A stretch of DNA of 64,000 bases from the NCBI GenBank assembly GCA_023701435.1, contig JAMPXB010000019.1, forward strand, positions 1 to 64,000. Reading direction: 5' to 3'. The stretch comes from Bacteriovoracaceae bacterium. Its GTDB lineage: Bacteria; Bdellovibrionota; Bacteriovoracia; Bacteriovoracales; Bacteriovoracaceae. Shown piece by piece: positions 159-16,050 of the stretch (position 1 is the stretch's first letter; each line of letters opens with the position of its first letter). Below the pieces are notes generated by a model, which was given only the letters and a program-made list of their open reading frames with translations, searched no databases and had not been told where the DNA came from. A program made the translations under genes and the position numbers.

Positions 159-2564
159 CTACAGGGCAAAAGCATTCAAGGCACACATCCCTAGTAAGAA
201 GATACTTCCACCTGTTTCCACCATCTTGGACATCTTACGGGTGGTCTGCCGTTTGAACATGATTAAGCTTAGAAGATAAATTCCTGAAAATGTGTAGGCG
301 AGAAGGCGATAAATCAGAGGGAAATCGAATTTCATAGTTTCCATCAAAACCATGATCACCACAGTCATGATGCCTTGGACGATAAGTGCCCCATTTATTC
401 CCCAAAAACGGGTATAGCTGTCGGCGTTTTCATTCTCCCGGTCAGGAGACCAGGTCTTACGGGCCATTTCATAGACCGTATAAAGAAGGGTTAGAAAGAG
501 CAGCACCGGAAAGAGGCCTGAGCCATTCTTAAGATGATCTAGAGTAATAAAAGGCAGCGCTGAATAGAGTGCCAAAGGAACCAGGATGAATTGATGCAAA
601 ACTAAATTCAAGGTTACCTTGGGGTCCAGAAACTCCTTGCAGAAAAACTCTTGGGCCATCAGGTTGGCCCAGATTTGAAGTATAATCATAAAGATCAAAT
701 GGCTTGTGCCCATCAAGGCACTGATAATCAGTTCGATGAGAATAGTCGAATAGAGCACGGCACGGACCAGGTCCAATTTTATAATACCGCGGGAGAGAAT
801 TCTCTCAGGGAAGGCCTTGGAGTCTTTGCCAAAATCTTTTATCTCATCGGCCATTCTTAATTGCAGCATGAAAAGAAAAACCGTTCCCATGGTGATCCAC
901 AATTTGGGTTCCTGCCAGCTAAAACTTGTCTTAAACCAGGCCGCAAAAAAATGGGCGTAACCTGACGTTAGTAAAAAAACAAAGAGAAAGATAGGAACCA
1001 GAGGGAATCTTTCATTCGTGTAGGCCAGCAATCTTTTAAAAAGAGGGGAATCATGAGTGATAGTCATCTTTGGTCCTTGCACAAGTTCAGTTTTTAAAGA
1101 GGGAAGATCAATTTTAGAGCGATGCCGGGCATCCATTGGTATCGATTCAATATTTTTGATTTCGTCACAGGGAAGATTTTCTTGCACGAAAAATTTTTCA
1201 ATGAGCAAGCGGGATGCAGGGTCACCTTCATAGGCGAGAACAATTTTGTTTTGCACTTGCAGATAGGCAGACTTTTTTACACCGGAGAGTTGATCGATTT
1301 GATTCTCAACCGGCACGGGATATAAGTCACCTAGCGGTGTTTGAATGGGATTACTCTTCCGTCCGATCATGCTTAAAAAGCTGTCACGCTCAAGCACCAT
1401 GTCTCCGGTTTTGTGCCAAATACGACCTTGTTCATCAACCCATTTATTTTCATGAAAAGCTTTTTCATTGTTCCAATAACGTTTACCGACGAAGTCGCCA
1501 GTCAGTGCTACTTCACCAACCTTGCCCTGATGATAGGGATGAACTTTTCCGGGAGGAGGAAGTAGATCATAAGTAAGGGCATCTACAATCCGTCCGAGCG
1601 GAGTTCCTGCTCTTTTGTCTTCTGATTTTTCCACCACCTCTTTCATTGAAACCAAAGCAATGGGTTCAGCTTCAGTAGAGCCATAGACGACCCAACCACC
1701 AATATCAGGATTAATTTTTAACAATCGCTCACAGATATCTCTTCTGACAGGAGCACCGCCAGTGAATACTTTTTTTAGTGGCAGAGGCTTTTTATGGTCC
1801 TCACAGTATCTGACAAGTTTCTCCAAAATAACGGGAGACACAGAAATCGATGCGACTTTGTAATGAGTCAATTGCTGGTACAACTCTTCTGGTTTAATGG
1901 TATCGATTTTTCTTAAATTGCCTTTGATTAAAACGGAGGTCATTCCAGATTTAAGATTACTCAGCACAAAGACTGGATACATCGACAAATCAATTTCTTT
2001 TTCATGATGATCAAAATAGGTATCGTGGGCCTTTTGCTGAGACAAAAGAAAGAAGTGAGAGCGGTCAAAACCCTTAGGAATGCCGGTGGTCCCGGACGTA
2101 AAAGTAATGAGAGCCGTGTGTTCATCTTCCACTTGTGTGACTTCAGTCAGCCGTCCCGTGGTTGGATCATTGATTAAGTCATCGAGCAAAATTTTCCAGG
2201 GAATTTGGCGGATGGACTTCTTGAGGTAGAAAAGCCGCGCTTTTTTGCTGATGATAAGAAATTCGGGATTAACTTGAGAAAGGGCCTTTTCAATGTAGTC
2301 AGAATTTGCCCAGGGGTCCACCAGGACAACGGTTGCCCCAATTTGAAAGCAGGCGGCAATGGCGCAGTAAAGGGGCCAGTCCAAAGAGGCGAGTAGGACC
2401 ACTTTAGAATTTTCTCCAAGCCCTTTAGACCGCAGGAGAAAACTCAGTTTGGTGGTGTGATCATAGAATGCTGAAAAACTTAACTCAGCGCCTTCCTGAT
2501 TGATAATAGCAGTCTCATTCTCTCGACTTTTAAGCATCAAGAGAGTTTCTTCCATAAGATTCAT
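159..2564 (-). CDS. AMP-dependent ligase (OleC-like) fused to a UbiA-like membrane domain
   Basis: This protein of about 801 aa has two parts. Residues 1 to about 510 form an adenylate-forming acyl ligase: the ATP loop TSGTTGIPKG is near residue 156, followed by a GGAPV segment, the YGSTEAEP adenine-binding motif and WHKTGD. The GGAPV/YGSTEAEP style recalls OleC-type ligases. Residues from about 515 are hydrophobic with several membrane helices and a DEIKDFGKD Asp cluster followed by PERILSRG, like the first Asp motif of UbiA prenyltransferases. A second acidic stretch (DRENENAD) lies in a later loop. It probably activates a fatty or prenyl-type acid at the membrane and passes it to an integral-membrane transferase; the substrate is unknown. 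The ATG at 2562-2564 was chosen over an upstream GTG (2588) that has no ribosome-binding site. It is divergent from the lipid/export operon. Confidence 0.8.
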   Translation of the reverse strand: MNLMEETLLMLKSRENETAIINQEGAELSFSAFYDHTTKLSFLLRSKGLGENSKVVLLASLDWPLYCAIAACFQIGATVVLVDPWANSDYIEKALSQVNPEFLIISKKARLFYLKKSIRQIPWKILLDDLINDPTTGRLTEVTQVEDEHTALITFTSGTTGIPKGFDRSHFFLLSQQKAHDTYFDHHEKEIDLSMYPVFVLSNLKSGMTSVLIKGNLRKIDTIKPEELYQQLTHYKVASISVSPVILEKLVRYCEDHKKPLPLKKVFTGGAPVRRDICERLLKINPDIGGWVVYGSTEAEPIALVSMKEVVEKSEDKRAGTPLGRIVDALTYDLLPPPGKVHPYHQGKVGEVALTGDFVGKRYWNNEKAFHENKWVDEQGRIWHKTGDMVLERDSFLSMIGRKSNPIQTPLGDLYPVPVENQIDQLSGVKKSAYLQVQNKIVLAYEGDPASRLLIEKFFVQENLPCDEIKNIESIPMDARHRSKIDLPSLKTELVQGPKMTITHDSPLFKRLLAYTNERFPLVPIFLFVFLLTSGYAHFFAAWFKTSFSWQEPKLWITMGTVFLFMLQLRMADEIKDFGKDSKAFPERILSRGIIKLDLVRAVLYSTILIELIISALMGTSHLIFMIILQIWANLMAQEFFCKEFLDPKVTLNLVLHQFILVPLALYSALPFITLDHLKNGSGLFPVLLFLTLLYTVYEMARKTWSPDRENENADSYTRFWGINGALIVQGIMTVVIMVLMETMKFDFPLIYRLLAYTFSGIYLLSLIMFKRQTTRKMSKMVETGGSIFLLGMCALNAFAL

Positions 2565-2593
2565 CGGCACTCTTTGATAAATAACCACATATT

Positions 2594-2623
2594 TTGAAAA
2601 TTAGTTATCATTTTACTCATAAT
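2594..2623 (+). promoter_or_regulatory. Putative sigma70 promoter of the 2647-11194 operon
   Basis: TTGAAA (2594-2599) and CATAAT (2618-2623) are separated by 18 bp in the AT-rich gap between the divergent ligase and kinase-like genes. The predicted start of transcription would lie just ahead of the AGGA ribosome-binding site at 2637-2640. This is a match by eye only. Confidence 0.4.
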
Positions 2624-2646
2624 AAAAATTATAGCTAGGATCATTG

Positions 2647-5370
2647 ATGACTGCCAATTTCATTCTCTCACCAAAATCTTCGGCCTTAGAATTTGAACAA
2701 TCTGGAGGTGGTAAGGCTTACCATCTGAAAAAGATGTTCGATCTGAATCTGCCGGTTCCTGAATGGGTGTGTTTATCAACTCACGCTTTTACTGCCTTTA
2801 TCGAACGCAATAATCTGACTGATCTTTTGGAAGAAGAAATTGATTTTCCTCTGAAAGAAAAAAAGATTGAGGAACAATTTCTTAAGTCCGTTTTGCCGGC
2901 CGAAATAAAAGCGGAACTGGATGCATTTTTCTCTTCCGTTAAAATTGACCAGAACTTTTTCGCTGTTCGCTCTTCAGGTAGCGATGAAGATTCGAAAGAT
3001 GCATCCTTTGCCGGTCAGTTCTCAAGCTTCTTGTTTCAAAAGGGCAAGGAGGCGATTGAAACCTCTATTAAACGATGTTGGGCTTCGGGATTTTCTGAAC
3101 GTGCCATGACTTATCGCCGCGAAAAGAATTTAAGTCTCAAGGGCATTAAAGTCGCGGTAGTCATTCAGAGAATGCTTTTCCCGGAAGCTGCTGGGGTCTG
3201 CTTTTCCCGCAACCCGATTGATCCTCTGGATCGCAATCACCTGCTGATCTCTGCCAGTTGGGGTGTAGGTGAAGGAGTGGTGAGTGGTCTCGTGTCATGT
3301 GATGAAATAAAAGTGAATCGCACCAATTTTTATGAGACAGAAATACAAATTGAAGAAAAGAAAATCCGTCTCGATTTTGCCAATGGCAAGATGGAGCAGG
3401 TGGCCAATAGTGAAGCCGACGTGAAGAGGCTTTGTCTGGATGAGAGTTCGATTGTGCAGTTGTCACAATTGGCACTGGAGCTGGAATCAAAATTGGGTGG
3501 TGCCCAGGATATTGAATTTGCCGTGGAAAAAGGCAAAGTTTATTTACTACAAACTCGTCCGGTCACTCATCTTCCCAATGATGCTTTTTTCAATAGTCAT
3601 ATTATGGGAGAAGATCTGGTGTTATGGGATAACTCCAATATCATTGAAAGTTATTCAGGAGTCGCTAGTCCTTTGACCTTTAGTTTTGCCTCCTATACCT
3701 ACCGTCAGGTCTATCGGCAGTTCATGGAGATGATGGGGATTCCTAAAAAAGAAATCGATGACAATGATCATATCTTCAGAAATCTCCTGGGGCTGGTGCG
3801 GGGACGTTTTTATTATCATCTGATCTATTGGTACAAACTCGTGCTCATGCTCCCTGGTTCTGAAAACAATAAACAGTTCCTTGAGACTATGATGGGGGTT
3901 AAGAAAACATTGGATGAAGATGCTCAGAAAATGTTTGATTCAGTCGGAGTCTCTGAAAAGAAAACCCCTCTTAAGACCAAGCTTTACGTCACTTACATGA
4001 CGATCAAAAACTTCATTAATATTGATTCCATTGTGGGTAATTTTACTCGTGACTTCGATAAAATCTACCAAGACTTAAAGAAAAGAGATTTCAAAAAGCA
4101 GAGTCTTAATGAATCAATAAATCTCTATAATTATCTGGAAGGCGAAGTCCTGTCGAACTGGAAAGCACCTATCATTAATGACTACCTTTGCATGATCTTT
4201 TTCGGTCTCTTAAAAAAACTGACTGATAAATGGATTGAGACCGAGGGCAAAATTGAAGGGACACAAAATGATCTCTTGTGTGGCCAGGGTGATTTGGAGA
4301 GTACTGAGCCCACCAAAATGCTGATGAGAATGTCCAAGAAAATAGACCTGGAAAATTCGCACATGCGTGAAAAACTCACCACCAGACCAGTGCCTGAGCT
4401 GCTGGAGGATAAGGAAGTTAAAGAATTAATCTGGCCATTCCTGGATCGTTTCGGATTTCGATGTGCCAATGAGCTAAAACTAGAAGAGCCCGATCTGCAT
4501 GATGACCCAAGTTTCGTCATCTATACTCTCGCCAATTATATCAAGATGAAAACTTATGACATTGAAGGGATGGAGAAGCGTGAAGGAGAAATCAAACGGG
4601 CCGCGGAAGAGAAGGTCAATAGGAAACTGACCGTCTGGCAGAAGCCTATCTATTTCTGGGTGTTAAAGCACGCCCGTATCGCCGTCCGTAATCGTGAAAA
4701 TTTACGATTCTTAAGAACTAAGATTTTCGGTATTACCCGTCATTTAATGAGGGGAATTGGTCACAACTTTTACCAGCTTAAAATGTTGAATGATCCTTCT
4801 CATATTTTTTATCTTAAAGTGGAAGAGATCCGCGGAATCGTAGAAGGACGCAGTATGGGCGATAATTACGCCAAACTCGCCCAAGAGAGATTTGATCTCT
4901 TTAACCATTACCGCAAGACACCTAATCCACCTGATCGCTTTATCACTAAAGGAGCTGTCGGACTCTATAATTATTTTCCTGCAGTTCTTTCGCAGCTTGA
5001 TCTTCTGAAAGGTCACGGCATTCCAGATGATCCAAACATGCTGATTGGTACACCTTGTTGTCCGGGTGTTATTGAGGGCGTTGTGAGAGTGGCCAAGGAA
5101 TTCGCCGATGCCGAAGGTCTTAATGGGGATATTTTAGTCACTGAAAGGACTGATCCAGGTTGGGTTCCGTTATATCCAAGTTGTTCCGGTCTTTTAATTG
5201 AAAGAGGATCTCTCTTATCTCACTCGGCAGTTGTCGCCCGTGAACTGGGATTACCGACAATTATTGGCGTGAATGGTGGACTGATGACAAAACTTAAAAC
5301 GGGAGATCGGGTCAGAATTGATGCCTCTACCGGAATCATTCAAATTCTTAATGAGGAAGTTAAAGCATGA
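2647..5370 (+). CDS. PEP-synthase/rifampin-phosphotransferase-like ATP-dependent dikinase
   Basis: A 907-aa protein. Residues about 15-315 form the ATP-grasp domain of PEP synthase and pyruvate phosphate dikinase (AVRSSGSDEDS, GVCFSRNP, QDIEFA followed by LLQTRPVT). The last 100 residues are the swivelling phosphohistidine domain, with the motif LLSHSAVVARELGLP giving His859. There is no C-terminal PEP-binding TIM barrel; instead about 430 unrecognised residues sit between the two domains. This order matches rifampin phosphotransferase (ATP domain, substrate domain, His domain) rather than PEP synthase. By family it should move phosphate from ATP through the histidine to a small hydroxylated substrate. 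The lipid context suggests a lipid or head-group precursor, not an antibiotic. The ATG at 2647 follows AGGA by six bases; a TTG at 2644 is less likely. First gene of a tightly overlapping operon. Confidence 0.8.
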   Translation: MTANFILSPKSSALEFEQSGGGKAYHLKKMFDLNLPVPEWVCLSTHAFTAFIERNNLTDLLEEEIDFPLKEKKIEEQFLKSVLPAEIKAELDAFFSSVKIDQNFFAVRSSGSDEDSKDASFAGQFSSFLFQKGKEAIETSIKRCWASGFSERAMTYRREKNLSLKGIKVAVVIQRMLFPEAAGVCFSRNPIDPLDRNHLLISASWGVGEGVVSGLVSCDEIKVNRTNFYETEIQIEEKKIRLDFANGKMEQVANSEADVKRLCLDESSIVQLSQLALELESKLGGAQDIEFAVEKGKVYLLQTRPVTHLPNDAFFNSHIMGEDLVLWDNSNIIESYSGVASPLTFSFASYTYRQVYRQFMEMMGIPKKEIDDNDHIFRNLLGLVRGRFYYHLIYWYKLVLMLPGSENNKQFLETMMGVKKTLDEDAQKMFDSVGVSEKKTPLKTKLYVTYMTIKNFINIDSIVGNFTRDFDKIYQDLKKRDFKKQSLNESINLYNYLEGEVLSNWKAPIINDYLCMIFFGLLKKLTDKWIETEGKIEGTQNDLLCGQGDLESTEPTKMLMRMSKKIDLENSHMREKLTTRPVPELLEDKEVKELIWPFLDRFGFRCANELKLEEPDLHDDPSFVIYTLANYIKMKTYDIEGMEKREGEIKRAAEEKVNRKLTVWQKPIYFWVLKHARIAVRNRENLRFLRTKIFGITRHLMRGIGHNFYQLKMLNDPSHIFYLKVEEIRGIVEGRSMGDNYAKLAQERFDLFNHYRKTPNPPDRFITKGAVGLYNYFPAVLSQLDLLKGHGIPDDPNMLIGTPCCPGVIEGVVRVAKEFADAEGLNGDILVTERTDPGWVPLYPSCSGLLIERGSLLSHSAVVARELGLPTIIGVNGGLMTKLKTGDRVRIDASTGIIQILNEEVKA

Positions 5371-6389
5371 GGCTCATAAGCTTAAATGACTATCCACAAT
5401 GGAAAAATGTTTTTTGTAATTTAACAAATCGTGTTTTATCAGAAGCGGATAGGTCATATGCCATAAAACCCGAGTATGTGGATAAAATTTTGGGATTAAA
5501 TTTTCCAGTACCCTCGGAAGCATTTTTCTTTGAAGATCTGACGGGTGAATTCTTTGGTCGTATTCTGCTGCAGGGGTCGGTGCTCGATCCTGAGGTTGGG
5601 CATTGGGGACTTTTTTGTCTTTCTTCTCAGCCCAAACATAAAGAGGGATTTATCAAACTGTGGCCTGAGATTGAGGCCTGGTTTAAAACATTTGGTATCA
5701 AAAAAATTATTGGGCCCTATCTCTATACAACTTTTTTCCCTTACCGCCTTCGTTCTGATGATTTTTCTGAAAAGTTCAGCTGGGAACCAAATCAACCCAA
5801 GGTAGACTTGGAAGTTTTTAAGGCACTTAATTTTGAAACTCATCAAACTTATTTCAGCAATATCATTAAAGGTTACGGGGTATTTGAAACAAAGGGAACC
5901 CGTGAGTATGACGAAGCCCTTAAGGCCGGATTTAAACTGCGGGAAATAAGTAAGGATCAGATGGAAGAGGATATCAAGATCCTCTATGAGCTTTCTATGA
6001 AAACCTTCACTGACAACTATCTATTTGCTCCTATCCCTTATGAATTATTTAAAAGCATTTATGTGCCGAGCTTTCAGGGCCTGGATTTAAGAATGTCTTG
6101 TATCGTGGAAGATCCACAAGGTAAGCCTGTGGGCTTCAATTTTACCTTCATCATGGATGATCAGATTGTCATCAAATCTGTCTGTGTGATCGATGAATAC
6201 CGTGGGAAGGGACTTTTAAATGCAACTTTCAGGTGGAGTATGCTGCAAGCGATGAAGTTATACCCGCAAGTAAAAAAAGTGGCCACGGCTCTGATCCATG
6301 AAGATAACACTGCCACTAAGCACGTGGCCAATCAGTCTCAGGATCGTCAGCGTCATGAGTATGTCCTCTTGAGCAAGGAAATCTTATGA
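5367..6389 (+). CDS. GNAT-family N-acyltransferase
   Basis: A 340-aa protein starting in an ATGA overlap with the preceding kinase-like gene and ending in an ATGA overlap with the ABC ATPase. The C-terminal half has the GNAT acetyl-CoA pyrophosphate loop, seen as VIDEYRGKGLLN near residue 275, after a beta-strand segment (IVIKSVCV). The N-terminal half has no motif I recognise but may be a degenerate second GNAT fold, as in proteins that use acyl-ACP donors. It probably acylates an amino group. In this operon the amino group made by the BtaA-like enzyme at 10127-11194 is a possible acceptor, but that is inference. Confidence 0.65.
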   Translation: MRLISLNDYPQWKNVFCNLTNRVLSEADRSYAIKPEYVDKILGLNFPVPSEAFFFEDLTGEFFGRILLQGSVLDPEVGHWGLFCLSSQPKHKEGFIKLWPEIEAWFKTFGIKKIIGPYLYTTFFPYRLRSDDFSEKFSWEPNQPKVDLEVFKALNFETHQTYFSNIIKGYGVFETKGTREYDEALKAGFKLREISKDQMEEDIKILYELSMKTFTDNYLFAPIPYELFKSIYVPSFQGLDLRMSCIVEDPQGKPVGFNFTFIMDDQIVIKSVCVIDEYRGKGLLNATFRWSMLQAMKLYPQVKKVATALIHEDNTATKHVANQSQDRQRHEYVLLSKEIL

Positions 6390-7069
6390 CACTTCTCTAT
6401 GACGTAAAAAATTTAAATTTTAACTATCAGCTCGAAGGTGTTGAGTTTAAGGCCCTCAAAAACATAAACTTGAAAGTTTCCGTTGGTGAGATGGTCACCT
6501 TTGCCGGGCCTTCAGGCTCTGGTAAATCCACACTGTTAAATCTCATGGGTTTAATGGAAGACACCTCTCGAGACATGATTTTCTATAATGGTAAATGTCT
6601 AGGAAACCTAGAAGAGCACGAGAAAAATACTATCCGTCGATTTGATATTGGCTTTATTTTTCAAAGTTTCCATCTTTTTCCTGTGCTCAGTACCTGGGAA
6701 AATATTGAATTCTTTCTCATACGGCAGGCCGTTGCAGAAAACAAAAGAAAAGAACTTATTGAAGAGGCCCTGGAAGTCCTGGGCATCACTGATTTAAGGG
6801 ACAAACGTCCCACTCAACTCTCGGGAGGACAGCGGCAGCGAGTGGCCATCGCCCGGGCCCTGGCCAAGCGTCCAAAAGTCATCATTGCTGATGAACCAAC
6901 TGCCAGTCTTGATCAAAAAAATGGTGAAGCAGTTGTTAATCATTTGTTCGAAATCAATAAAAAATTTGGCAGTACCATTATTGTCGCAAGCCACGACCCG
7001 ATGGTCTTGAAGCATTCCCCCAAAATAATTCATTTAAAAGACGGCGAAATTCAGAAGGAGAATGCATGA
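6386..7069 (+). CDS. LolD/MacB-type ABC transporter ATPase
   Basis: A 227-aa ATP-binding subunit. Walker A is GPSGSGKST (near residue 41), the signature is LSGGQRQRVAIARAL, Walker B is VIIADEPTASLD and the H-loop is ASHD. Length and sequence fit the LolD/MacB/FtsE class, whose partners are FtsX-fold permeases. Its partner follows immediately, starting in an ATGA overlap. The pair probably uses ATP hydrolysis at the inner membrane to release or drive a lipid or lipoprotein toward the periplasmic carrier encoded two genes downstream. Confidence 0.9.
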   Translation: MTLLYDVKNLNFNYQLEGVEFKALKNINLKVSVGEMVTFAGPSGSGKSTLLNLMGLMEDTSRDMIFYNGKCLGNLEEHEKNTIRRFDIGFIFQSFHLFPVLSTWENIEFFLIRQAVAENKRKELIEEALEVLGITDLRDKRPTQLSGGQRQRVAIARALAKRPKVIIADEPTASLDQKNGEAVVNHLFEINKKFGSTIIVASHDPMVLKHSPKIIHLKDGEIQKENA

Positions 7070-8265
7070 TCTTCAAATTCTCCTTTAGAAATATCTGGCG
7101 TCAGCGCTCCCGTGCCTTTGCCGTTTTGGCAACAGTGTCCTTAGGTATCAGTGCCCTGATGATATATCATGGTTTTAATGCCGGTATTATGAATCAATAC
7201 CGTGACAATACAATTCGGGCCCGCTTTGGACACGGCCAGGTCAATACCAAGAATTATAGAGATGAGATCTGGGATAAACCATGGGAACGTTGGATTGATC
7301 CAGCCGCGCCTTTTGTGGAAGAATTGAAAAATCGCCCGGAAGTTGAATTTATCTTTCCCCGTATTTCATTTTACGCACTTTTAAATAATGGTGAAAAAAC
7401 TCTATCTGGTGCCGGAGAAGGTGTTGACGGAAAAAGTGAGTCGCAATTTTTCACGACCTTAAATGTTATTGAAGGCAAAATTCTTTCAGGTGAAGAGGAC
7501 GGCATTATTCTGGGGAAGGGGCTGGCGGAAGCTTTAAAGTTAAAAGTGGGAGACCGGGTGACCGTTCTCGCTAACACTCATTCTGGAAGCTTGAACGCTG
7601 TTGATGTATATGTGACCGGAATTTTCTTTGCCGGGATGAAGAGTTTCGATGACACCTTCTTCAGAATTCAACTCTCAAAGGCACAGGAACTGCTGGATAC
7701 TCCCAAAGTGGAAAACATCGCTTTGGGTCTAAAGCAGCTTGAAGACTGGCCGAAGGTTGAGTCCTGGGTTGATGGCAGCACTGATTATGAAGCCACTCCC
7801 TTCAATGTTTTGGACAAGGTTTATTATCAAAATTCCGTGGACTTTCTCCAGGCGCAGTTTGGATTTATCTTCATTGTCATCGTTGTGATCGTGGTCTTAG
7901 GTATTTTCAATACCGTGAGTACCATCATTCTTGAACGGAAAGGTGAAATTGGAAATATGCGGGCCAATGGTGACTCCTATCGTGAGGTTTTGACCCTGCT
8001 TTTGACCGAAAGTCTGATTTTGGGATTCATTGGAGCAACTTTAGGGGTGTTACTATCTTATTTTTGTAACTTCACCATTCTTGCTAATGGAATTCAAATG
8101 CCGCCAGGTCCAGGAATTACCCGTCAGTTTACTACCTTTGTAGAGCTGCAATTAGCTTTTATTCCAGTTTGTTATCTGATCGGTATTCTCTCAAGCCTCC
8201 TTGGTACTGCCATGGCCGCAAGAAGAGTGCTGAAGATGCCAATTACCGAACTTCTTAGAGGTTAA
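7066..8265 (+). CDS. FtsX-type ABC permease (LolC/E-like)
   Basis: A 399-aa permease: one N-terminal membrane helix (residues about 17-38), a large periplasmic domain (about 40-265), then three helices (about 272-295, 315-340, 365-390). This is the LolC/LolE/MacB topology. The last segment carries the usual AARRVLKMPITELLRG ending. It overlaps the ATPase by ATGA and is followed three bases later by a LolA-like protein. Inner-membrane half of an envelope export system. It could form a homodimer, since only one permease is present, unlike the LolC/LolE pair. Confidence 0.88.
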   Translation: MIFKFSFRNIWRQRSRAFAVLATVSLGISALMIYHGFNAGIMNQYRDNTIRARFGHGQVNTKNYRDEIWDKPWERWIDPAAPFVEELKNRPEVEFIFPRISFYALLNNGEKTLSGAGEGVDGKSESQFFTTLNVIEGKILSGEEDGIILGKGLAEALKLKVGDRVTVLANTHSGSLNAVDVYVTGIFFAGMKSFDDTFFRIQLSKAQELLDTPKVENIALGLKQLEDWPKVESWVDGSTDYEATPFNVLDKVYYQNSVDFLQAQFGFIFIVIVVIVVLGIFNTVSTIILERKGEIGNMRANGDSYREVLTLLLTESLILGFIGATLGVLLSYFCNFTILANGIQMPPGPGITRQFTTFVELQLAFIPVCYLIGILSSLLGTAMAARRVLKMPITELLRG

Positions 8266-8267
8266 GC

Positions 8268-8957: not shown

Positions 8958-10120
8958 TTTTTCTTCTGCTCCTTCTCCCACTCATTGCTCTGTCTCAGGA
9001 TTTTTCTGAAGAAAGTTTTACTGTCGGCGGGAGAAGCAGCTATTTCACTAATTCAAGTGAATGGGACAATACTTTTTTATATTATGTCCCGGAATACTCG
9101 TCCGAGACTTTCGGAGAAACCGTAGGTCTACGCCGAAAATTAAAACTGCGCGTCCTGGATTATGTTTCAAGCGATGAGAAGGTCATCATTGATCCGCTGG
9201 ATGTTTCGGCAGAATTCTTTACCAACAATAACAGCTTTCAGGTTGGTTTTTTACGATACCGTTTCTCAGAGACTTTCGGTGTTCAGTTTCTGGACGTTGC
9301 CAATCCCCGGGATTATTCAGAATTTATTATTAATGATCTCGCCTGGTCCAAGCGTTCAGTCTTTGGAGTAAATAACACTTATAAATGGAATGATTTGCAG
9401 ATTCAGTTGATACTGACTCTTTGGCCTAATGGAGACCGTCTTCCCTATAAGGATTCCGCCTTCGATCCCACGAATGGGCAAATTGATTACCAGGGTGGGG
9501 TAGTGGAGCGACCTTGGCTTAAAGACCTCGAATATGGCACTCGCTTTAAATACTTGTTTCAAAATGGTCTGGATCTGAGTTTTCTTTATTATCACCATTT
9601 CAGCCGTCCTACATTTTTGGATATTAAATTTAATAATCAATCGCTTCCTAAAGCAGTGCCCACTAATCACTTGGTGGATTCTCTGGGAAGCTCAGCGAGT
9701 TATGTGTGGGAGAATTGGGTGTTAAGAGGTGACGCTCTTTTCACTTTCAATGATCTGGTTCAAGAAGACCTTATTAATTATAAAAAAGAAAATCACTTTC
9801 AGGCACTGGCAGGAATTGATCGGAACTTTGATAACTTCTTGTTTGGACTACAGCTTCAGGGCGACTTTGCTACCCAAAGGCATTTCTATGGTGTGCGCAG
9901 TGAATACACCAATAACACCTGGTGGAAACCATCAGTTATGGTTTTTCGGAGCTTTAAGGCCAATGATCAATGGCTTCAGTTAAAATCTCTCTTCGAATCA
10001 GATGATTGGAAATTTAGTTTAGTATACGACAACATTCATGGTGGTAAGGACGAGGAAAACTTATTCGGACTTTATCGCACTGAGGACCGCTTCCTGGTGG
10101 ATGTGAGTTTTACCTATTAG
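8954..10120 (+). CDS. Outer-membrane beta-barrel protein
   Basis: A 388-aa protein with a short signal peptide (MIFLLLLLPLIALS-Q) and long runs of alternating aromatic and polar residues that end in a terminal aromatic (VDVSFTY), typical of an outer-membrane barrel. It starts at GTG in a GTGA overlap with the LolA-like gene, so the two are translationally coupled. No family-specific motif was recognised. It may be the outer-membrane acceptor or exit point of the ABC/LolA-like pathway. Confidence 0.7.
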   Translation: MIFLLLLLPLIALSQDFSEESFTVGGRSSYFTNSSEWDNTFLYYVPEYSSETFGETVGLRRKLKLRVLDYVSSDEKVIIDPLDVSAEFFTNNNSFQVGFLRYRFSETFGVQFLDVANPRDYSEFIINDLAWSKRSVFGVNNTYKWNDLQIQLILTLWPNGDRLPYKDSAFDPTNGQIDYQGGVVERPWLKDLEYGTRFKYLFQNGLDLSFLYYHHFSRPTFLDIKFNNQSLPKAVPTNHLVDSLGSSASYVWENWVLRGDALFTFNDLVQEDLINYKKENHFQALAGIDRNFDNFLFGLQLQGDFATQRHFYGVRSEYTNNTWWKPSVMVFRSFKANDQWLQLKSLFESDDWKFSLVYDNIHGGKDEENLFGLYRTEDRFLVDVSFTY

Positions 10121-10126
10121 GAATTT

Positions 10127-11194
10127 ATGACACAAAGTTATTTTCAGAGTTTAAATTATTCGATGGCCAATGAGGATACAACTTTAGAATTCAAGTTGGC
10201 CGAAAGTATTGGTGCCAAAAAAATACTGACCGTAGGCGGAAGCGGTTCCCGAGCACTGCCTTTCATTGCACTGGACCCTGATGAATTGTGCATCGTCGAT
10301 GTCTCGACCGATCAACTTCTTTTAATACAGTTAAAATTGGAAACGATCCGACAATTGTCCCGACCCGACGCCATCCTCTTCTGGACTAGTGAAAACGGCG
10401 AGGCAAGGAAAACGGTCTTTGACAGGATGAAATTAGATGAAAAATTCAAATCCTTTTTTAAGTTTCAGACCGAAACGAATCCGAATACTCCACCTCTGTA
10501 TTGGGGGAAATGGGAAAAGACCTTTCAAACGTTTTCTAAGCTCAGCAAGCTTTTATTTTCACGCCAGACCAGAGAAGGCCTCTTTACTGCTGCTGACCCA
10601 TATGATTTTTATCAAAAAAATATCAAAGGTAAACGCTGGAGCCTTCTTTTAAAGATCGTCGGCAACAAGGCGATGTTTAATTCTCTCCTTTATAAGGGTA
10701 GTTTTATTCAAAAGAATTCTCCTCTTTCTTACTTTGATTATTATCATCAAGCCTTTGACCGTCTTTTTAAATTGGACGTCAAGAAAAGCCATTTCCTTCA
10801 ACTATGTTTGTGCGGGAAAGTATTGCATGAAGAGGCTTTGCCGATTGAATTTAGTCCTGACCTTTTTGCCAGGATCAAGGCTTCTGGCAGTCAGCCGACT
10901 TATCAGCAAGGATCAATATTTGAAAGGGCCGAAGGCACCTGTTATGACCTGGTTTCTCTAAGCGATGTTCCCAGCTATCTTTCAGGTGAAATTGAGCGGG
11001 ACTACATTCAGCTACTGTCAAAAAATCTTGCAAATAATGGAGTGATTGTTAACCGCTTCTACTTAAGAAGCACTGAAAATACAGACATCAGTTCTTTTAC
11101 TGACATCACCAATGATTATCGCGGGATTATTGACCAGGAACTCGTCCAGATGTACGAGGTCCAGCTTTTAAAGCATGGTTCCGGCAAAGGGTAA
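10127..11194 (+). CDS. DUF3419/BtaA-like SAM:diacylglycerol aminocarboxypropyltransferase homologue
   Basis: A 355-aa protein resembling BtaA. An NYSMANEDTTLE segment (compare the W-E-D region of BtaA) is followed by LTVGGSGSRALPFIA and VDVSTDQLLLIQLKL, the SAM-binding part, and a YWGKWEKTF segment. BtaA moves the 3-amino-3-carboxypropyl group of SAM to diacylglycerol, making diacylglyceryl-homoserine, the first step of betaine-lipid synthesis. The methylase BtaB is not nearby. ATG at 10127 follows TAGGAA. The 3' end overlaps the convergent gene by 68 bp. The family call is fairly firm; the substrate is inferred. Confidence 0.7.
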   Translation: MTQSYFQSLNYSMANEDTTLEFKLAESIGAKKILTVGGSGSRALPFIALDPDELCIVDVSTDQLLLIQLKLETIRQLSRPDAILFWTSENGEARKTVFDRMKLDEKFKSFFKFQTETNPNTPPLYWGKWEKTFQTFSKLSKLLFSRQTREGLFTAADPYDFYQKNIKGKRWSLLLKIVGNKAMFNSLLYKGSFIQKNSPLSYFDYYHQAFDRLFKLDVKKSHFLQLCLCGKVLHEEALPIEFSPDLFARIKASGSQPTYQQGSIFERAEGTCYDLVSLSDVPSYLSGEIERDYIQLLSKNLANNGVIVNRFYLRSTENTDISSFTDITNDYRGIIDQELVQMYEVQLLKHGSGKG

Positions 11195-13178
11195 TTTCTT
11201 CTTCGGTAATTTCACCAGCATGTCCCATGACGGCGGCCAATCGCACTCCATGCTTACGGGCCAGACGGTCAATTTCACAGACCCGCTCATAGGAGAGGTC
11301 TCGGGACAAACTGAATGATTCATGACGCCCTTCCATGGCAAGCAGGGCCGTTTCGGCGAGACAGGCATAAACGATATTCCCTGGAAGTCCGATGCTCTTC
11401 TCAATATTTACATTTCCTGGAAGTGCTACTTCACCGCTGGCGATGACTAAAATGTCGGGCCTTCTGGCGGCTTCATCGAGGCTGATATCAAAAGGACGGC
11501 TAACATCACAGATAACACATCCAGGTTTTACCTGCATGATATCCAAAACACTTTCTCCCTGAGCGGAAGTAGAGGTGATGATCAAATCACATTCAGCTGA
11601 GTATTTATCTGGATTGCTGGTTCCCAAAACTTCCGCCTTGGGATTTTGTTCTTTAAGTTCGGCTATGAGCTCCAGCACTTTATAAGGTCTTGGAGCAGAG
11701 ACAATGATGCGCTTCCATTGATTCGTTAAAATCCTGGCACAAACTTTACCAATACTGCCCGTGGCACCGATAACCATGACGGTACCCTGATAAGTGCCGC
11801 TGTCTTTGGTGACCAGACCCATTTTTTCCACGCCAAAACTAGCGGCCCACAATGTAGCCGAGGCGGAAAGAGAATTTCCCGTTGTCACAGGAATTGGAGA
11901 GTGTTCATTAACTGTGACACCGGCGTCACCAACTATTTTGGTGTAGGCCCCCAGACCGATGATCTTGGAACCTTTCTTATGAGCTTCCTGACAAAGTGAA
12001 TTCAGGGCACTGTAAACTTTCTCAGGTTTTTGTTTCATCATTACTTTAGGAGTCATAGGTAGAACAAATAGATCTCCTTCAACTTCTTTGCCATTAAAGT
12101 CCGATTTTATTCCGGTAACTTTCCCATAAAAATATCCAGGTGCATGTTTCATCATGTCTTCTATCTTCGCTCCTGCCGGAGTTGTCTCCAGCGGTTTAAT
12201 GATAGGGATTTGAAACAACTGAGACTTACTTAACGGATGAATGATGAATGAAAAGCGCTCGGTAGTAAGAGTCTTCTGGGATTTCGGCGTATAAATTTCC
12301 GGACGAAGTTTAAATTCAGCAATGATATCTAAAAGATCATCCTGATCTAGTTTGGTCTTTTCTGTATGAGCAAGAAGGATCGCCTCCAGTCCAGTGAATC
12401 CTAAATGGGGCATATTCACAAAATCCGGAAAACAACTATAGACCTTATCGGCATTCGCCTGATCCAGTTGCTTGCGGGAGAAATTATCGATCTGATCGAT
12501 AATAACTGTTTTTCCTGTGAGATCTTGAAGCTTCAAATATTCCATCTGTGTCTCATTGACGATGAAGATATCAGCATCAAAAAAAGCCTTCATGGTAGGT
12601 GCTTTAGTGAACTTATGGGTAAAATCTTTTTCTTTCAGATTCTCAAGGTTAAGTCGTTTCAAAATAGGACTGACCTGACCTGCCATTTTCTTAAAGGGGG
12701 CGAGCCCTTTTACAACAGTTGGTATGCCGGTCAAAGAATAAGGATCGGCAAAAATAAGATCTTCGCTCAGTTCACTGTAGGCTTGCAAATAGTCCCACTG
12801 AACAATCCCTGAATAGAAGGCTATCTTTTTTCCTTTAAAGAGAAATGGTTCCTTCTGGGCAAGATTTTTTAAGAACAAAGGAATCGCCATGAATTTTAGA
12901 TTGGCGCCATCGGTCCAGGGTGTATCTCCAGCAGCATTCCGCAATTTCTGGGTCTGTTCATGAGTATGAATTTTACCCTGATGTTTGATATCGATAGGGA
13001 ACCCAGAGAAGGAGAGGATGTCACATTGTGTGCGGTATTTGCGGACTAGTTCCAGTGCCAGTTCAAAATGAAAATCAACTCCCAGCCGTTTGACTCTGAA
13101 AGTATCTCCCAGCAGATTGATTTTTTCATCGAAGTTTTCTTTAGCTGAGCCAAAGGCGATGGTGATGATTTCTTTCAC
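11127..13178 (-). CDS. Large protein with a C-terminal acyl-ACP reductase (AAR)-like module
   Basis: A 683-aa protein. From about residue 303 it parallels cyanobacterial long-chain acyl-ACP reductase: a FSFIIHPLS start, LGAYTKIV, a TTGNSLSA segment, the Rossmann loop VIGATGSIGK (about 469-478) and YACLAETALLAMEG, in which Cys606 matches the acyl-accepting cysteine. AAR reduces acyl-ACP to fatty aldehyde with NADPH. The first 300 residues are an extra domain I do not recognise. It starts at GTG (13176-13178), one base overlapping the stop of the upstream SDR gene, and ends inside the 3' end of the convergent BtaA-like gene. Last gene of the minus-strand lipid operon. The AAR assignment rests on remembered motif order, not a search. 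Confidence 0.7.
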   Translation of the reverse strand: MKEIITIAFGSAKENFDEKINLLGDTFRVKRLGVDFHFELALELVRKYRTQCDILSFSGFPIDIKHQGKIHTHEQTQKLRNAAGDTPWTDGANLKFMAIPLFLKNLAQKEPFLFKGKKIAFYSGIVQWDYLQAYSELSEDLIFADPYSLTGIPTVVKGLAPFKKMAGQVSPILKRLNLENLKEKDFTHKFTKAPTMKAFFDADIFIVNETQMEYLKLQDLTGKTVIIDQIDNFSRKQLDQANADKVYSCFPDFVNMPHLGFTGLEAILLAHTEKTKLDQDDLLDIIAEFKLRPEIYTPKSQKTLTTERFSFIIHPLSKSQLFQIPIIKPLETTPAGAKIEDMMKHAPGYFYGKVTGIKSDFNGKEVEGDLFVLPMTPKVMMKQKPEKVYSALNSLCQEAHKKGSKIIGLGAYTKIVGDAGVTVNEHSPIPVTTGNSLSASATLWAASFGVEKMGLVTKDSGTYQGTVMVIGATGSIGKVCARILTNQWKRIIVSAPRPYKVLELIAELKEQNPKAEVLGTSNPDKYSAECDLIITSTSAQGESVLDIMQVKPGCVICDVSRPFDISLDEAARRPDILVIASGEVALPGNVNIEKSIGLPGNIVYACLAETALLAMEGRHESFSLSRDLSYERVCEIDRLARKHGVRLAAVMGHAGEITEEEITLCRNHALKAGPRTSGRVPGQ

Positions 13179-14209
13179 TAAAACATTCCTTTAGCACCTT
13201 CCACTATTTTGGACAGATACTCTTTAACAGCAGGTGCTTTGAGGTGAGGGAAATCTTGTTTAATTTGAGCCTTGCTGTAACTGGTCCGGGACTGCATATA
13301 AGGGACCAGTTGCTTGGGGATTTTTAAAAAAGGCATTAACTTCGAGTAAATGCCGGGAAAGGGCAGTCGCAAAACTTTTAGCTTAAGCTGATAATGTTTA
13401 AGAATTTGATTCACAAAACCAGTGATATAAATTTTTTCATCCGGCACCAGATGATAGCTTCGCATTTTATCTGTGGTCGGATGTGTGATCATTTCAAACA
13501 GCCATTCTACCAGGACATCAACCGGAAGTAGAGGAAGGGTCGAGGTGGCATGACAACTCAGAGGCAGATACTTAATAGGTAACTTGTTTTTGAATTTCGC
13601 CAGTTGATTGAAAAGCCGGAGGAAGTAATAAGGTCCATCGATTTTGTCCATTTCACCGGTTTTAGAGTCTCCAATAATAATGCCCGGACGATATATTCTA
13701 ACCTTGGTCTCTCTCAGGATAGCGTTTCTTACTAGATGTTCGGCCTGCATTTTGGTGCGGGAGTAGTGATCAGGAAAATCTATATTGGAAGCAATCTGAT
13801 CTTCCTGGAATTCACCGTCATACAGACCACTGACAGCATAAGTGCTCATATGGTGATAATACTTAAGCTGCTTCATCCTTTGGATTAGATAAATGATATT
13901 TTGAGTGCCGACCACATTGTTGGAATAGGCCTGTGCAAGATCAACTTCCAGGTCGTAGGAAGCGGCCAGATGGAGCACGCTGTCTATGTCTTCCGGCAAA
14001 TTCTCGACTCCCCCAACTGTATCCAGCACATCGTTGTTGGCAATATCGCCCAGAATAAAATGGAGGTTCTTTCTTTCCGTGAAGATCAGGCGGGCCTTCT
14101 CCAGGCTCTGCCTACGTACCAGAACATAGACTTCATGCCCACCTGCCAGGAGCTTTTCTGTGAGACGTTTACCTATAAAACCAGTTGCACCAGTAATTAA
14201 AATTTTCAT
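13178..14209 (-). CDS. Extended SDR, fatty-acyl/thioester-reductase-like
   Basis: A 343-aa NAD(P)-binding protein. The N terminus is ILITGATGFIGKRL (Rossmann loop), with a LHLAASYD segment and the catalytic Tyr-x-x-x-Lys seen as YSRTKMQAE. It resembles the extended SDR domain of fatty-acyl-CoA reductases and thioester reductases more than sugar epimerases. The ATG at 14207-14209 overlaps the stop of the upstream lipid-kinase gene as ATGA; an in-frame start 13 codons earlier would lie inside that gene. With the AAR-like neighbour it could take acyl thioesters or aldehydes to alcohols; this pairing is inference. Confidence 0.75.
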   Translation of the reverse strand: MKILITGATGFIGKRLTEKLLAGGHEVYVLVRRQSLEKARLIFTERKNLHFILGDIANNDVLDTVGGVENLPEDIDSVLHLAASYDLEVDLAQAYSNNVVGTQNIIYLIQRMKQLKYYHHMSTYAVSGLYDGEFQEDQIASNIDFPDHYSRTKMQAEHLVRNAILRETKVRIYRPGIIIGDSKTGEMDKIDGPYYFLRLFNQLAKFKNKLPIKYLPLSCHATSTLPLLPVDVLVEWLFEMITHPTTDKMRSYHLVPDEKIYITGFVNQILKHYQLKLKVLRLPFPGIYSKLMPFLKIPKQLVPYMQSRTSYSKAQIKQDFPHLKAPAVKEYLSKIVEGAKGMF

Positions 14210-15186
14210 TGTATGGTAGGAATTGTATCCAGTGAATAGCTTGGACACAAGACGATATCCTCGTTATTAGAATAAACCACCAGACCTTTAGGAACGATGC
14301 TGATATCCAACTCTTTTGCTGGAGTAAAATTCTCGCCATCTCCAAAGAAAGACAAATCCTTGCCATCGAGGGACATCATCTTAAGATTGTCTGTTTCAAA
14401 CTGGATAATATTTTTATCATCTTCAGGAAACTGCCCCATGAGAAATGAGGTCGCAGATTTAATAAATTCCAATTTATTATGATGAAGAAAAATTGTGACA
14501 TTAAATTTTCCGTCATCATTTCGAGTCGATGGAGCTACTGGAAATTTTCCGGCCAGGCGCGGTTGATTGTTCACTAGAATAAGAGGCGAGGAAACTCGTT
14601 TATCGAGAAGCGGCATATCTGGCGAATCCATAAAAATATCATGCAGTTCAAATTTGGCCGTCATAATCTGCTTAATGAACATTATGGAATAAGCATTCTT
14701 TCCTGCAGCTTTTAGAAATGATTTAAAAAGAGACATTTCTTTACGGAGTTTATTCACTTCCTGGGCCACTTTGTGGGCAATGCCCACTCCGCCATTGGTA
14801 ATCAGGTAGCGGCCGTTGACTTTAATAATGTCAACTTCGCGGGTCGTGCGAGCATGAAAAATATGGGCCAGTTTTTTTAAGTTGGAATTCGTCCCCATCT
14901 CATGAGCAAAGTCATTGGCCGTGCCGCCGGGAAGTACCAACAGTTTTGTTTTACTGCCAATGAGATTCTGGGCAATGGTGTGGGCGGTGCCGTCGCCACC
15001 AATGGAGAAGATACAGTCAACTCCATCTTCACGGTCTTTTTGGATGAGTTCAATGAGTTCAGTAACGGAAGCCGGACTATTGAATCTGATCTCCTGACGG
15101 AAGAAATATTTCTTTATTTCCACGGCCTGAAAAGAGTGGAGGGATTGTGAAGCATGTGGATTTAGATAAACTGATATTTGTGCCAT
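14206..15186 (-). CDS. Diacylglycerol/sphingosine kinase-family lipid kinase
   Basis: A 326-aa protein of the DagK/YegS/LCB5 family. The nucleotide-binding motif GGDGTAHTIAQ is near residue 61 and LPGGTANDFAHEMG near residue 83, and the C-terminal beta-sandwich is present (KFNVTIFLHH, LDGKDLSFFGDGE). The family phosphorylates diacylglycerol or long-chain bases with ATP. ATG at 15186 has AGGAA about 10 bases upstream. It couples by ATGA to the SDR gene. It fits a role in making or recycling the lipid handled by this locus. Confidence 0.85.
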   Translation of the reverse strand: MAQISVYLNPHASQSLHSFQAVEIKKYFFRQEIRFNSPASVTELIELIQKDREDGVDCIFSIGGDGTAHTIAQNLIGSKTKLLVLPGGTANDFAHEMGTNSNLKKLAHIFHARTTREVDIIKVNGRYLITNGGVGIAHKVAQEVNKLRKEMSLFKSFLKAAGKNAYSIMFIKQIMTAKFELHDIFMDSPDMPLLDKRVSSPLILVNNQPRLAGKFPVAPSTRNDDGKFNVTIFLHHNKLEFIKSATSFLMGQFPEDDKNIIQFETDNLKMMSLDGKDLSFFGDGENFTPAKELDISIVPKGLVVYSNNEDIVLCPSYSLDTIPTIQ

Positions 15187-15198
15187 ATATTTCTATTC

Positions 15199-15942
15199 CT
15201 ACTTCAAGACTTTTAAATCAGGGTTATTAAGATCAAACAATAAATCAGGGATCTCACTGCAAAGAATAGGAATCCCGCTCATTTGAATAGGCTGGGCCCA
15301 TAAATCAATTCGGTAAGAATCTTTCAAGCCCAATAAATGAAGCTTCATTACATTGAACATAATATTTTCCGGATCCTTCAGTTCCATTTCGGCGGCCTGC
15401 TGGGAGCGAAGAGGGATAAAGTGAGCAAAACGGTAGATAGATTCAATAAGATGTCGGGAAAAACAATAGTATTTTGGCTGGGATTTTAATTCAATCAGCG
15501 CTTCTACTGCTGTTCTTTTGACTTCATTAACATCTTTATGCTTTAGAGCGTCGGAAATCCGTCCTTTATAAAACTGCCAGTCAAATGGTCTGAATTGTTC
15601 TTTAGGAATAATTCTGGTCAGTGAATCAAATTCTGGTGAACGGATCATGCTCATAAATTCATGACAGAATAAATCCATGCCGTTCTTCTGATATGACAGG
15701 GCCTGTAAATCAAAGAAGGCAGCAGGGGCAAGAGATAGGTATTCATAACCTATCAAGAGATTAAAAATCTTATCTGAGCGTCCGTTAGTGATCTCGGCAT
15801 AGGCCTTTTTTCGTTCTTTATTAATAGCAATAGATTCTCTGATATGCGCCTGAAAGCAGAAACTGTCATAGGATTTGGCATACGCCGCAAAGGCACTTGT
15901 CATAAAGATTCCTAGGCTAAGGAGAAAAGGGGTTAACTTCAT
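15199..15942 (-). CDS. Secreted protein of unknown function
   Basis: A 247-aa protein with a clear signal peptide (MKLTPFLLSLGIFMTSAFAAYA). The mature part is mostly helical with four cysteines (FCFQAH, LFCHEF, YYCFSR, ILCSEI). No family recognised. It lies 12 bases upstream of the lipid-kinase gene on the same strand, so it is probably the first gene of that operon and acts in the periplasm. AGGA precedes the ATG by about six bases. Confidence 0.65.
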   Translation of the reverse strand: MKLTPFLLSLGIFMTSAFAAYAKSYDSFCFQAHIRESIAINKERKKAYAEITNGRSDKIFNLLIGYEYLSLAPAAFFDLQALSYQKNGMDLFCHEFMSMIRSPEFDSLTRIIPKEQFRPFDWQFYKGRISDALKHKDVNEVKRTAVEALIELKSQPKYYCFSRHLIESIYRFAHFIPLRSQQAAEMELKDPENIMFNVMKLHLLGLKDSYRIDLWAQPIQMSGIPILCSEIPDLLFDLNNPDLKVLK

Positions 15943-16020: not shown

Positions 16021-16050
16021 AAAAAAAAGGGGACCTTTGAAGGTCCCCTT
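16021..16050 (-). terminator. Intrinsic terminator of the DksA-like gene
   Basis: AAGGGGACCTT (16027-16037) and AAGGTCCCCTT (16040-16050) are perfect inverted repeats. On the minus strand the hairpin is followed by eight U residues (A-run 16021-16028). It sits about 20 bases past the stop of 16070-16441. Beside it, GTCTAG-AAA-CTAGAC (16006-16020) forms a second small inverted repeat of unknown role. Confidence 0.85.

Follow-up and report, generated by a model that had tools for sequence, protein, structure and literature searches.

A modular gene locus for a candidate lipid-like product, with an accessory LolA-type exporter, in Bacteriovoracaceae

What would a bacterium make with an acyl thioester reductase, a lipid kinase, a phosphohistidine dikinase and a UbiA-like membrane enzyme that are encoded beside a LolA-like exporter? 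The question is raised by a locus of twelve adjacent genes in a Bacteriovoracaceae bacterium (GenBank assembly GCA_023701435.1, contig JAMPXB010000019.1). The genome has 3.6 Mb and this contig (C12) 76 kb, of which the first 64 kb are the window analyzed here. An earlier reading of the DNA letters (the original prediction) had proposed that the set makes a non-standard, possibly ether- or amino-lipid and delivers it to the outer membrane; its adjacent open reading frames (ORFs), with one divergent and one convergent pair, were confirmed and number twelve. The explanation that we prefer, with a probability of roughly 0.4, is that the modules form a single pathway, whose product would be an amphiphile derived from a fatty aldehyde, with a capped amine and, in some cases, delivery to the outer membrane. 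The locus is modular: module A consists of a DAGK-type lipid kinase, an SDR and a two-domain reductase, module B of ligase, UbiA, dikinase and DUF3419 genes plus a capping gene, and module C of an ABC–FtsX–LolA-like exporter. This structure, and the exchange of GNAT-like for formyltransferase capping genes, is visible only through relatives.

Conservation of the gene set and exchange of its parts

The genes were mapped in 40 stretches from relatives (38 new loci together with L011 and L055) and in a further 80 loci, which are the best 80 of 254 reductase relatives in named genomes. Of the 80, we counted 59 as Bdellovibrionota, among them L108, L109, L147 and L148, which are titled only as proteobacteria; in 39 of the 59 the sequence extends 5 kb or more to either side of the reductase gene, and these serve as the basis of all counts out of 39. 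The other 21 loci come from other phyla; L160, without a labeled reductase ORF, was left out, and flanks of this length are present in 12. Most relatives are metagenome-assembled and incomplete, the score thresholds were chosen by us, and the BLAST labels are uncurated.

In Bdellovibrionota the SDR gene lies immediately upstream of the reductase gene in 39/39 loci. The lipid kinase gene is present in 38/39, DUF3419 in 36/39, the dikinase in 33/39, the ligase in 32/39 and UbiA in 31/39, and 29/39 loci contain ligase, UbiA and dikinase together; any exporter gene was seen in 7/39. In the 12 loci of other phyla one SDR and one P450 were found, and the remaining genes of the set were not. Gene order and orientation differ between the relatives' loci, which therefore do not represent one frozen block. 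Conservation in distant relatives far exceeds chance adjacency, and chance adjacency was rejected because the set stays together across the 39 Bdellovibrionota loci. The genes are thus mostly not scattered in relatives, as the original prediction had expected: they lie together in these loci and co-occur in genomes, although G027 has modules A and B some 1.2 Mb from each other.

Co-occurrence was scored in 78 genomes, the window's own among them. A dikinase was called present at 500 bits or more, a UbiA domain at 200 bits or more (or as a fragment, in G001) and DUF3419 at 200 bits or more; these thresholds leave out two DUF3419 matches below 80 bits and the weaker dikinase and UbiA paralogs of many genomes. 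Dikinase, UbiA domain and DUF3419 mark the identical 26 of the 78 genomes, and DUF3419 alone of the three is found in two extra genomes (G033 and G036). The reductase is present in 25 genomes (in one as a fragment), 23 of which are among the 26; G007 and G033 have it in the absence of this trio. The genes of the locus very probably work together, and the conserved neighborhood in varied orders together with the identical 26-genome distribution supports a single pathway.

Exchange of modules between lineages was observed. Among 42 of 100 distinct loci, those with ligase, UbiA and dikinase, 23 contain only a formyltransferase, 15 only a GNAT-like gene, four neither and none both. A hydrolase gene adjoins or is fused to the ligase gene in 23/23 formyltransferase loci and in 0/19 of the others, and the GxSxG motif was found in all three of these hydrolase sequences that were read. 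The capping label changes three times on a reductase tree (43 rows) and twice on a dikinase tree (48 rows); both trees were made by a quick method, have some long branches and carry hand-assigned labels. That the two capping genes never occur together in the 42 loci and, by these trees, were exchanged at least two or three times supports the proposed pathway. In G023, which belongs to the window's genus, the reductase is 68–69% identical to that of the window, yet module B is of the formyl type; in G021 the exporter proteins are 72–84% identical to the window's, and the adjoining dikinase is just 44% identical. P450 genes and, less often, metallo-hydrolase genes are added to GNAT-type loci. 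In three formyltransferase-type loci (L078, L079 and L086, approximately 2800–4960) a further gene converges on the dikinase gene, and its product has what we take to be an asparagine-synthetase-like N-terminus.

Module B also occurs on an alphaproteobacterial plasmid, that of Roseinatronobacter sp. S2 (NZ_CP121116.1), where a six-gene run (L190 523–8507) encodes UbiA, dikinase, DUF3419, an unknown 439-residue protein, a GNAT-like protein and an AMP ligase. No reductase, SDR, lipid kinase or exporter gene is present among the 12 annotated features listed for L190. A search of plasmids with the UbiA protein as query gave no match; the plasmid UbiA-like relative was reached via the dikinase.

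Enzymes of modules A and B

Family matches confirmed the predicted ABC, FtsX, LolA-like, BtaA-like (DUF3419), AAR-like, SDR and lipid kinase proteins, and from these and the other families we infer the following steps. The reductase would load an acyl thioester on Cys606 and reduce it to a long-chain aldehyde. Its C-terminal half has the AAR fold (Foldseek E 9.5e-20, TM-score 0.80 on the target), and Cys606, invariant in 17 reductase sequences, aligns with AAR Cys294 (counted along the alignment). The protein matches the PigE model at 4e-51 and the AAR model at 7e-14, and scores below the AAR equivalog cut-off of TIGR04058 (51.8/449.7 bits). PigE and TamH, which contain the same kind of domain, are reported to reduce acyl thioesters (PMC8341465, PMC9594044). 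The window reductase shares the fold, the Rossmann domain and the catalytic Cys with AAR and with the PigE and TamH reductase domains; it differs in an additional domain of about 300 residues at the N-terminus, in having neither an ADO partner nor a fused aminotransferase, and in scoring under the AAR and PigE cut-offs. The AAR fold and Cys606, together with the acyl thioester reduction by PigE and TamH, support the aldehyde step. The reductase has its nearest named relatives in Bacteriovoracaceae. Free-standing relatives of the N-terminal domain (about 31% identical) were seen in L096 (5592–6545) and L097 (7887–8843), and the same genomes hold the two-domain protein.

In 6/9 Desulfobacterales-type loci a two-domain reductase gene lies near an L163-type wax ester synthase/DGAT (Pfam) homolog, which supports the proposed pathway, and weaker wax ester synthase homologs occur in two loci of other groups. 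In L163 (8020–17632) and its kin (L162, L164, L165, L173 and L177) two tandem two-domain reductase genes lie by the wax ester synthase/DGAT homolog, together with a hydrolase, and four of the loci have an ABC1-type kinase as well; these Desulfobacterales loci look like wax ester or fatty alcohol loci. In the window, the SDR would work on the same chain as the reductase, and the DAGK-type kinase would phosphorylate the lipid.

The dikinase belongs to the phosphohistidine dikinase superfamily (PF01326 (PPDK_N) 4e-72; PF00391 (PEP-utilizers) 5e-20), with an ATP domain and a swivel domain that contains its His860. The His pattern was found in 59/66 relatives' dikinase ORFs; six of the misses comprise three truncated ORFs and three variants. 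The phosphotransferase domains of the predicted RPH-like protein are present, but by the family cut-off it is no rifampin phosphotransferase (NF041857, 304/999 bits). PigC was likewise rejected as the family (329/1300 bits, under the equivalog cut-off), as was PEP synthase, as there is no C-terminal PEP/pyruvate barrel at E 0.01 and the best PEP-synthase model reaches 843/883 bits, a narrow miss.

Two alternatives come nearest to the proposed pathway: secretion of a prodiginine-like metabolite, and synthesis of an ether lipid by archaeal-like steps. In the first, a PigC-like dikinase would join the fatty aldehyde to an amine partner, as in prodiginine or tambjamine synthesis, and the product would be a weapon, signal or pigment and no membrane lipid. 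The reductase match to PigE and the dikinase matches to PigC and RedH (about 1e-98) fit this, although both proteins are under cut-off; so do the aminotransferase-reductase fusion of a sister locus described below, which resembles PigE and TamH, and the plasmid pig-type clusters, which contain the same kinds of protein. Both pig/tam clusters and the window locus group an AAR-type reductase, a PigC-type dikinase and an AMP-forming ligase. Among the twelve genes, however, no ketosynthase, dedicated acyl carrier protein, bipyrrole, PigA-, PigD-, PigF-, PigH- or PigJ-type gene was recognized, and the window has an SDR, a UbiA-like protein, a lipid kinase and a DUF3419 protein; to our knowledge, the last two have no part in prodiginine or tambjamine pathways. 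A prodiginine cluster proper was therefore rejected, and we consider a metabolite of this general kind unlikely.

The ligase half of the predicted ligase-UbiA fusion matches PF00501 (AMP-binding) at 2e-40 and contains the adenylation motifs TSGTTGIPK, YGSTE and TGD. Its nearest models are PRK09274 (273/478 bits) and those of OleC, all below cut-off. This recalls OleABCD olefin/beta-lactone clusters; in contrast to these, no OleA-like gene was recognized in the locus, the whole genome not having been searched for OleA. An olefin cluster was rejected, as the OleC models score 136/850 and 132/900 bits and no thiolase is present among the twelve genes. An active OleA is reported from Halobacteriovorax marinus (PMC7064751).

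The UbiA half of the fusion has no Pfam match at 0.01, and the NCBIfam prenyltransferase model PRK13592 gives just 74/443 bits; the PF01040 cut-off is reached by the sister-locus and Roseinatronobacter UbiA proteins and not by those of the window and L079. The first Asp-rich motif, LRxxDExKDxxxD, is kept in 15/15 rows of the alignment, and ExxRK replaces the second Asp-rich motif in all rows. In the proposed pathway the ligase would adenylate a carboxylate, the dikinase would activate or join a partner via phosphohistidine, and the UbiA-like enzyme would carry out the transfer at the membrane.

The DUF3419 protein may move the aminocarboxypropyl group of S-adenosylmethionine (SAM), which would provide a carboxylate and a homoserine-like amine. 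The protein passes the Pfam cut-off (PF11899, 80.8 against 28.2 bits), and its structure model has a pLDDT of 88.9. The predicted BtaA-like enzyme is borne out at the level of the Pfam family, but it is a remote homolog. Ordinary betaine-lipid (DGTS) synthesis by a BtaA homolog, for which the Pfam match could be taken, is scarcely credible: the window DUF3419 gene is linked to UbiA, dikinase and capping genes and tracks UbiA and dikinase in 26/28 genomes, no BtaB-like gene was recognized in the locus (the genome was not searched for BtaB), and we know of no need for UbiA or dikinase in DGTS synthesis. Another setting of DUF3419 was seen on Rhizobium plasmid pMK-2 (L192 5829–12167), with genes for ketoacyl-ACP synthase III, an NAD(P)-dependent oxidoreductase, an MBL-fold hydrolase, CoF synthetase, DUF3419 and a hypothetical protein. 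The homoserine-like amine would then be capped by the GNAT-like enzyme in the window and by the formyltransferase in other lineages.

Of the lipid originally predicted, the lipid-like character finds support in the reductase, lipid kinase and DUF3419 protein, but neither an ether nor an amino lipid was demonstrated. The product is probably lipid-like, and a homoserine-type head is less likely than not.

An accessory exporter and a sister locus

The LolA-like carrier exceeds the PF17131 (LolA_like) cut-off (131.3 against 30 bits), and the ATPase and permease score under the NCBIfam LolD and LolCE cut-offs (Table 1). Where module C is present, the LolCDE-like pump would extract the product, the LolA-like protein would carry it and the outer membrane would receive it. 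LolCDE-LolA lipoprotein sorting has in common with module C a LolD-like ATPase, an FtsX permease and a LolA-type carrier; module C differs in its one permease gene, its PF17131 carrier and a putative outer-membrane protein of its own. The genome has a separate LolA (PF03548) on contig C43. A canonical Lol system was rejected as the identity of module C, as the Lol cut-offs were not reached and no lolCE match above cut-off was found in the incomplete genome. The predicted outer-membrane barrel agrees with the position and signal-like N-terminus of the protein, but neither this protein nor the secreted protein has a Pfam match up to E 0.1, and for this reason we call the former a putative outer-membrane protein. 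Among the 78 genomes it is 72% identical in four relatives and at most 33% identical in five more.

The cognate LolA-like protein, scored present at 200 bits or more, was found in 8/78 genomes, and the reductase is present in 8/8 of these. The exporter, present in 8/25 reductase-bearing genomes, is an optional, accessory partner of the biosynthetic genes, which weakens the original prediction on outer-membrane delivery.

A paralogous sister locus was found in three genomes of the window's genus (L179, L181 and L183) and in L186 of the same family. Its order is aminotransferase-AAR fusion, GNAT-like gene, P450, dikinase, UbiA, small protein, FtsX–FtsX–ABC–LolA-like–outer-membrane protein and second dikinase; the P450 is missing from L183. 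The fusion protein has about 970 residues and a class-III aminotransferase domain (PF00202, about 1e-59), and matches the PigE model at 2.7e-79, below cut-off. The small protein is CarS-like where scanned (L181), and L110, a mix of window-type and sister-type loci, also has a CarS-like gene. In the window's own genome, contig C3 (L194 8477–13910) has kept the sister exporter, 72–94% identical to that of G011, with just a 104-residue ORF that resembles the aminotransferase-AAR fusion, near the contig end; the biosynthetic genes of this sister locus may be lost or lie on another contig. Of these families, the window's genome yielded one reductase gene and one UbiA gene. The link of synthesis to export is supported by the same toolkit having been paired twice with the same class of exporter, and the reductase in 8/8 LolA-like genomes adds to the support for the proposed pathway.

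The CarS-like genes bear on the ether-lipid alternative, in which the UbiA-like enzyme would attach an alkyl or prenyl chain to a glycerol backbone through an ether bond, with a CDP-lipid step following in the sister locus. Up to E 1 the UbiA profile matches nothing in the PDB but archaeal DGGGP synthase (9e-6), and UbiA is neighbored by genes resembling CarS, the CDP-archaeol synthase, both in the sister locus (3.2e-14) and in the hybrid L110 (3.2e-6). Compared with the archaeal enzymes, however, the DGGGP synthase match is weak, the second Asp-rich motif is altered to ExxRK, and no CarS-like gene was recognized in the window locus. We regard an archaeal-like ether lipid as rather improbable.

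Several observations weigh against the modular aldehyde pathway. The Fisher p values (1e-18 for module B with DUF3419, 2e-14 for module B with the reductase and 5e-5 for the exporter with the reductase) ignore phylogeny. Module B occurs without module A in G009, G037 and G061 and on the Roseinatronobacter plasmid, and the aldehyde step is therefore not obligatory. Capping by the GNAT-like protein depends on a sub-threshold family match; the predicted GNAT does match PF00583, but with 16.8 bits it stays under the Pfam cut-off of 20.7. The DUF3419 model gave no fold match at E 0.001, only weak methyltransferase-like ones, and PDB sequence searches with the protein no firm match. The second Asp-rich motif has a role in UbiA prenyltransferases, and its alteration makes the reaction of the UbiA-like enzyme uncertain. 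By the measure used, the LolA-like exporter is absent from 17/25 reductase-bearing genomes, and four more genomes have LolA-like matches of 101–125 bits, three of them without a reductase.

This patchy distribution of the exporter would also suit two neighboring but separate functions, with genes for an unrelated outer-membrane carrier system that by chance lie inside those for a biosynthetic pathway. Against this, distant lineages again have the exporter next to the biosynthetic genes, in varied positions (L080, L085, L089, L133, L152 and L154), the reductase is present in all eight cognate LolA-like genomes, and the sister locus has an exporter of its own; chance insertion is quite improbable.

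Layout of the locus and its possible meaning

The plus-strand run has seven genes and the minus-strand run four, with the ligase-UbiA fusion gene divergent from the former (Table 1). Four 4-base overlaps (dikinase/GNAT-like, GNAT-like/ABC, ABC/FtsX and LolA-like/outer-membrane protein) and one 1-base overlap (reductase/SDR) were found; the remaining gaps are 2, 6 and 12 bases, the convergent DUF3419 (end 11194) and reductase (end 11127) genes overlap by 68 bases, and SDR and DAGK genes overlap by 43 bases from the GTG start, a value that is smaller if the SDR begins at the ATG used by relatives. The same gene order lies inside a 579-kb contig of G018, with the twelve proteins 70–89% identical to the window's, and is therefore no assembly artefact. 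The window starts at the contig end, which places any genes past the ligase gene outside its coverage; in G018 the ligase gene is followed by one that does not belong to the set.

Table 1. Positions of the features in the window; the last row lies in a relative's locus.
Feature	Position	Strand	Remarks
Ligase-UbiA fusion (module B)	159..2588	-	acyl-adenylating ligase, OleC/PRK09274-like, ~1-500; UbiA-like membrane domain ~516-809
Divergent intergenic gap, 55 bases	2589..2643	.	two promoter-like sites pointing away from each other
PEP-synthase-like dikinase (module B)	2644..5370	+	domains: ATP, unknown middle, swivel (His860)
GNAT-like protein, proposed N-capping enzyme (module B)	5367..6389	+	PF00583 16.8 bits, below cut-off
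ABC ATPase, LolD/DarD-like (module C)	6386..7069	+	PF00005 1.2e-33; LolD model 184/308 bits
FtsX-type permease, LolCE-like (module C)	7066..8265	+	PF02687 2.9e-16, PF12704; lolCE 95/362 bits
LolA-like periplasmic carrier (module C)	8268..8957	+	PF17131 4.1e-38
Putative outer-membrane protein (module C)	8954..10120	+	signal-like N-terminus, aromatic C-terminus; barrel suggested by sequence and position
DUF3419 (BtaA-family) protein, predicted SAM-type fold (module B)	10127..11194	+	PF11899 1.4e-22
Two-domain reductase (module A)	11127..13178	-	unknown N-terminal domain ~1-305; AAR/PigE-type thioester reductase ~308-670, Cys606
Extended SDR, male-sterility/acyl-reductase type (module A)	13178..14248	-	PF07993 (NAD_binding_4) 4.2e-40
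Diacylglycerol-kinase-type lipid kinase (module A)	14206..15186	-	PF00781 (DAGK_cat) 2.2e-17
Secreted protein of unknown family (accessory)	15199..15942	-	no Pfam match up to E 0.1; 5/39 loci
Terminator-like hairpin	16027..16050	-	10-pair stem, then T run; consensus match only
Sister locus	L181 4975-19223		also L179, L183, L186

The best promoter-like site (11/12 consensus, minus strand) and one of the two second-best sites (10/12, plus strand) overlap the divergent gap; the number of such sites in the region (24 against 31.0 in shuffles) is not above chance. A DksA-like gene lies beyond the minus-strand run, and the terminator-like hairpin falls between the two. Ten proteins past the locus were scanned, as far as 62647; eight of them (26094–55279) have ordinary matches, namely a TonB-dependent receptor, AroA, GuaB, GuaA, DNA polymerase III alpha, an HD-domain protein, phosphoglucomutase and an Na+/H+ antiporter, and the other two have no match.

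Searches of the openly licensed PMC literature gave no published description of the gene set among the titles and abstract openings listed, and the portion of an antiSMASH survey of Bdellovibrionota considered here does not mention the locus (PMC8067016). A bolder proposal, which we hold to be doubtful, is that the locus makes an undescribed class of envelope lipid, with an aldehyde- or alcohol-derived chain and a SAM-derived aminocarboxypropyl head with an acyl or formyl group on its nitrogen, built by the dikinase and the altered-motif UbiA-like enzyme and placed in the outer membrane of predators by a dedicated LolA-type pump. If this is true, module B would act as a head-group cassette able to move between lineages, one that reached Alphaproteobacteria too. 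The locus predicts two chemotypes in related species, arising from interchangeable acyl-type and formyl-type capping genes. It also gives a functional context for DUF3419, PF17131 and UbiA-like proteins, which are usually annotated singly. Many Bdellovibrionota are predators of Gram-negative bacteria, and a lipid or secreted amphiphile specific to Bdellovibrionota would bear on both their envelope and their predation.

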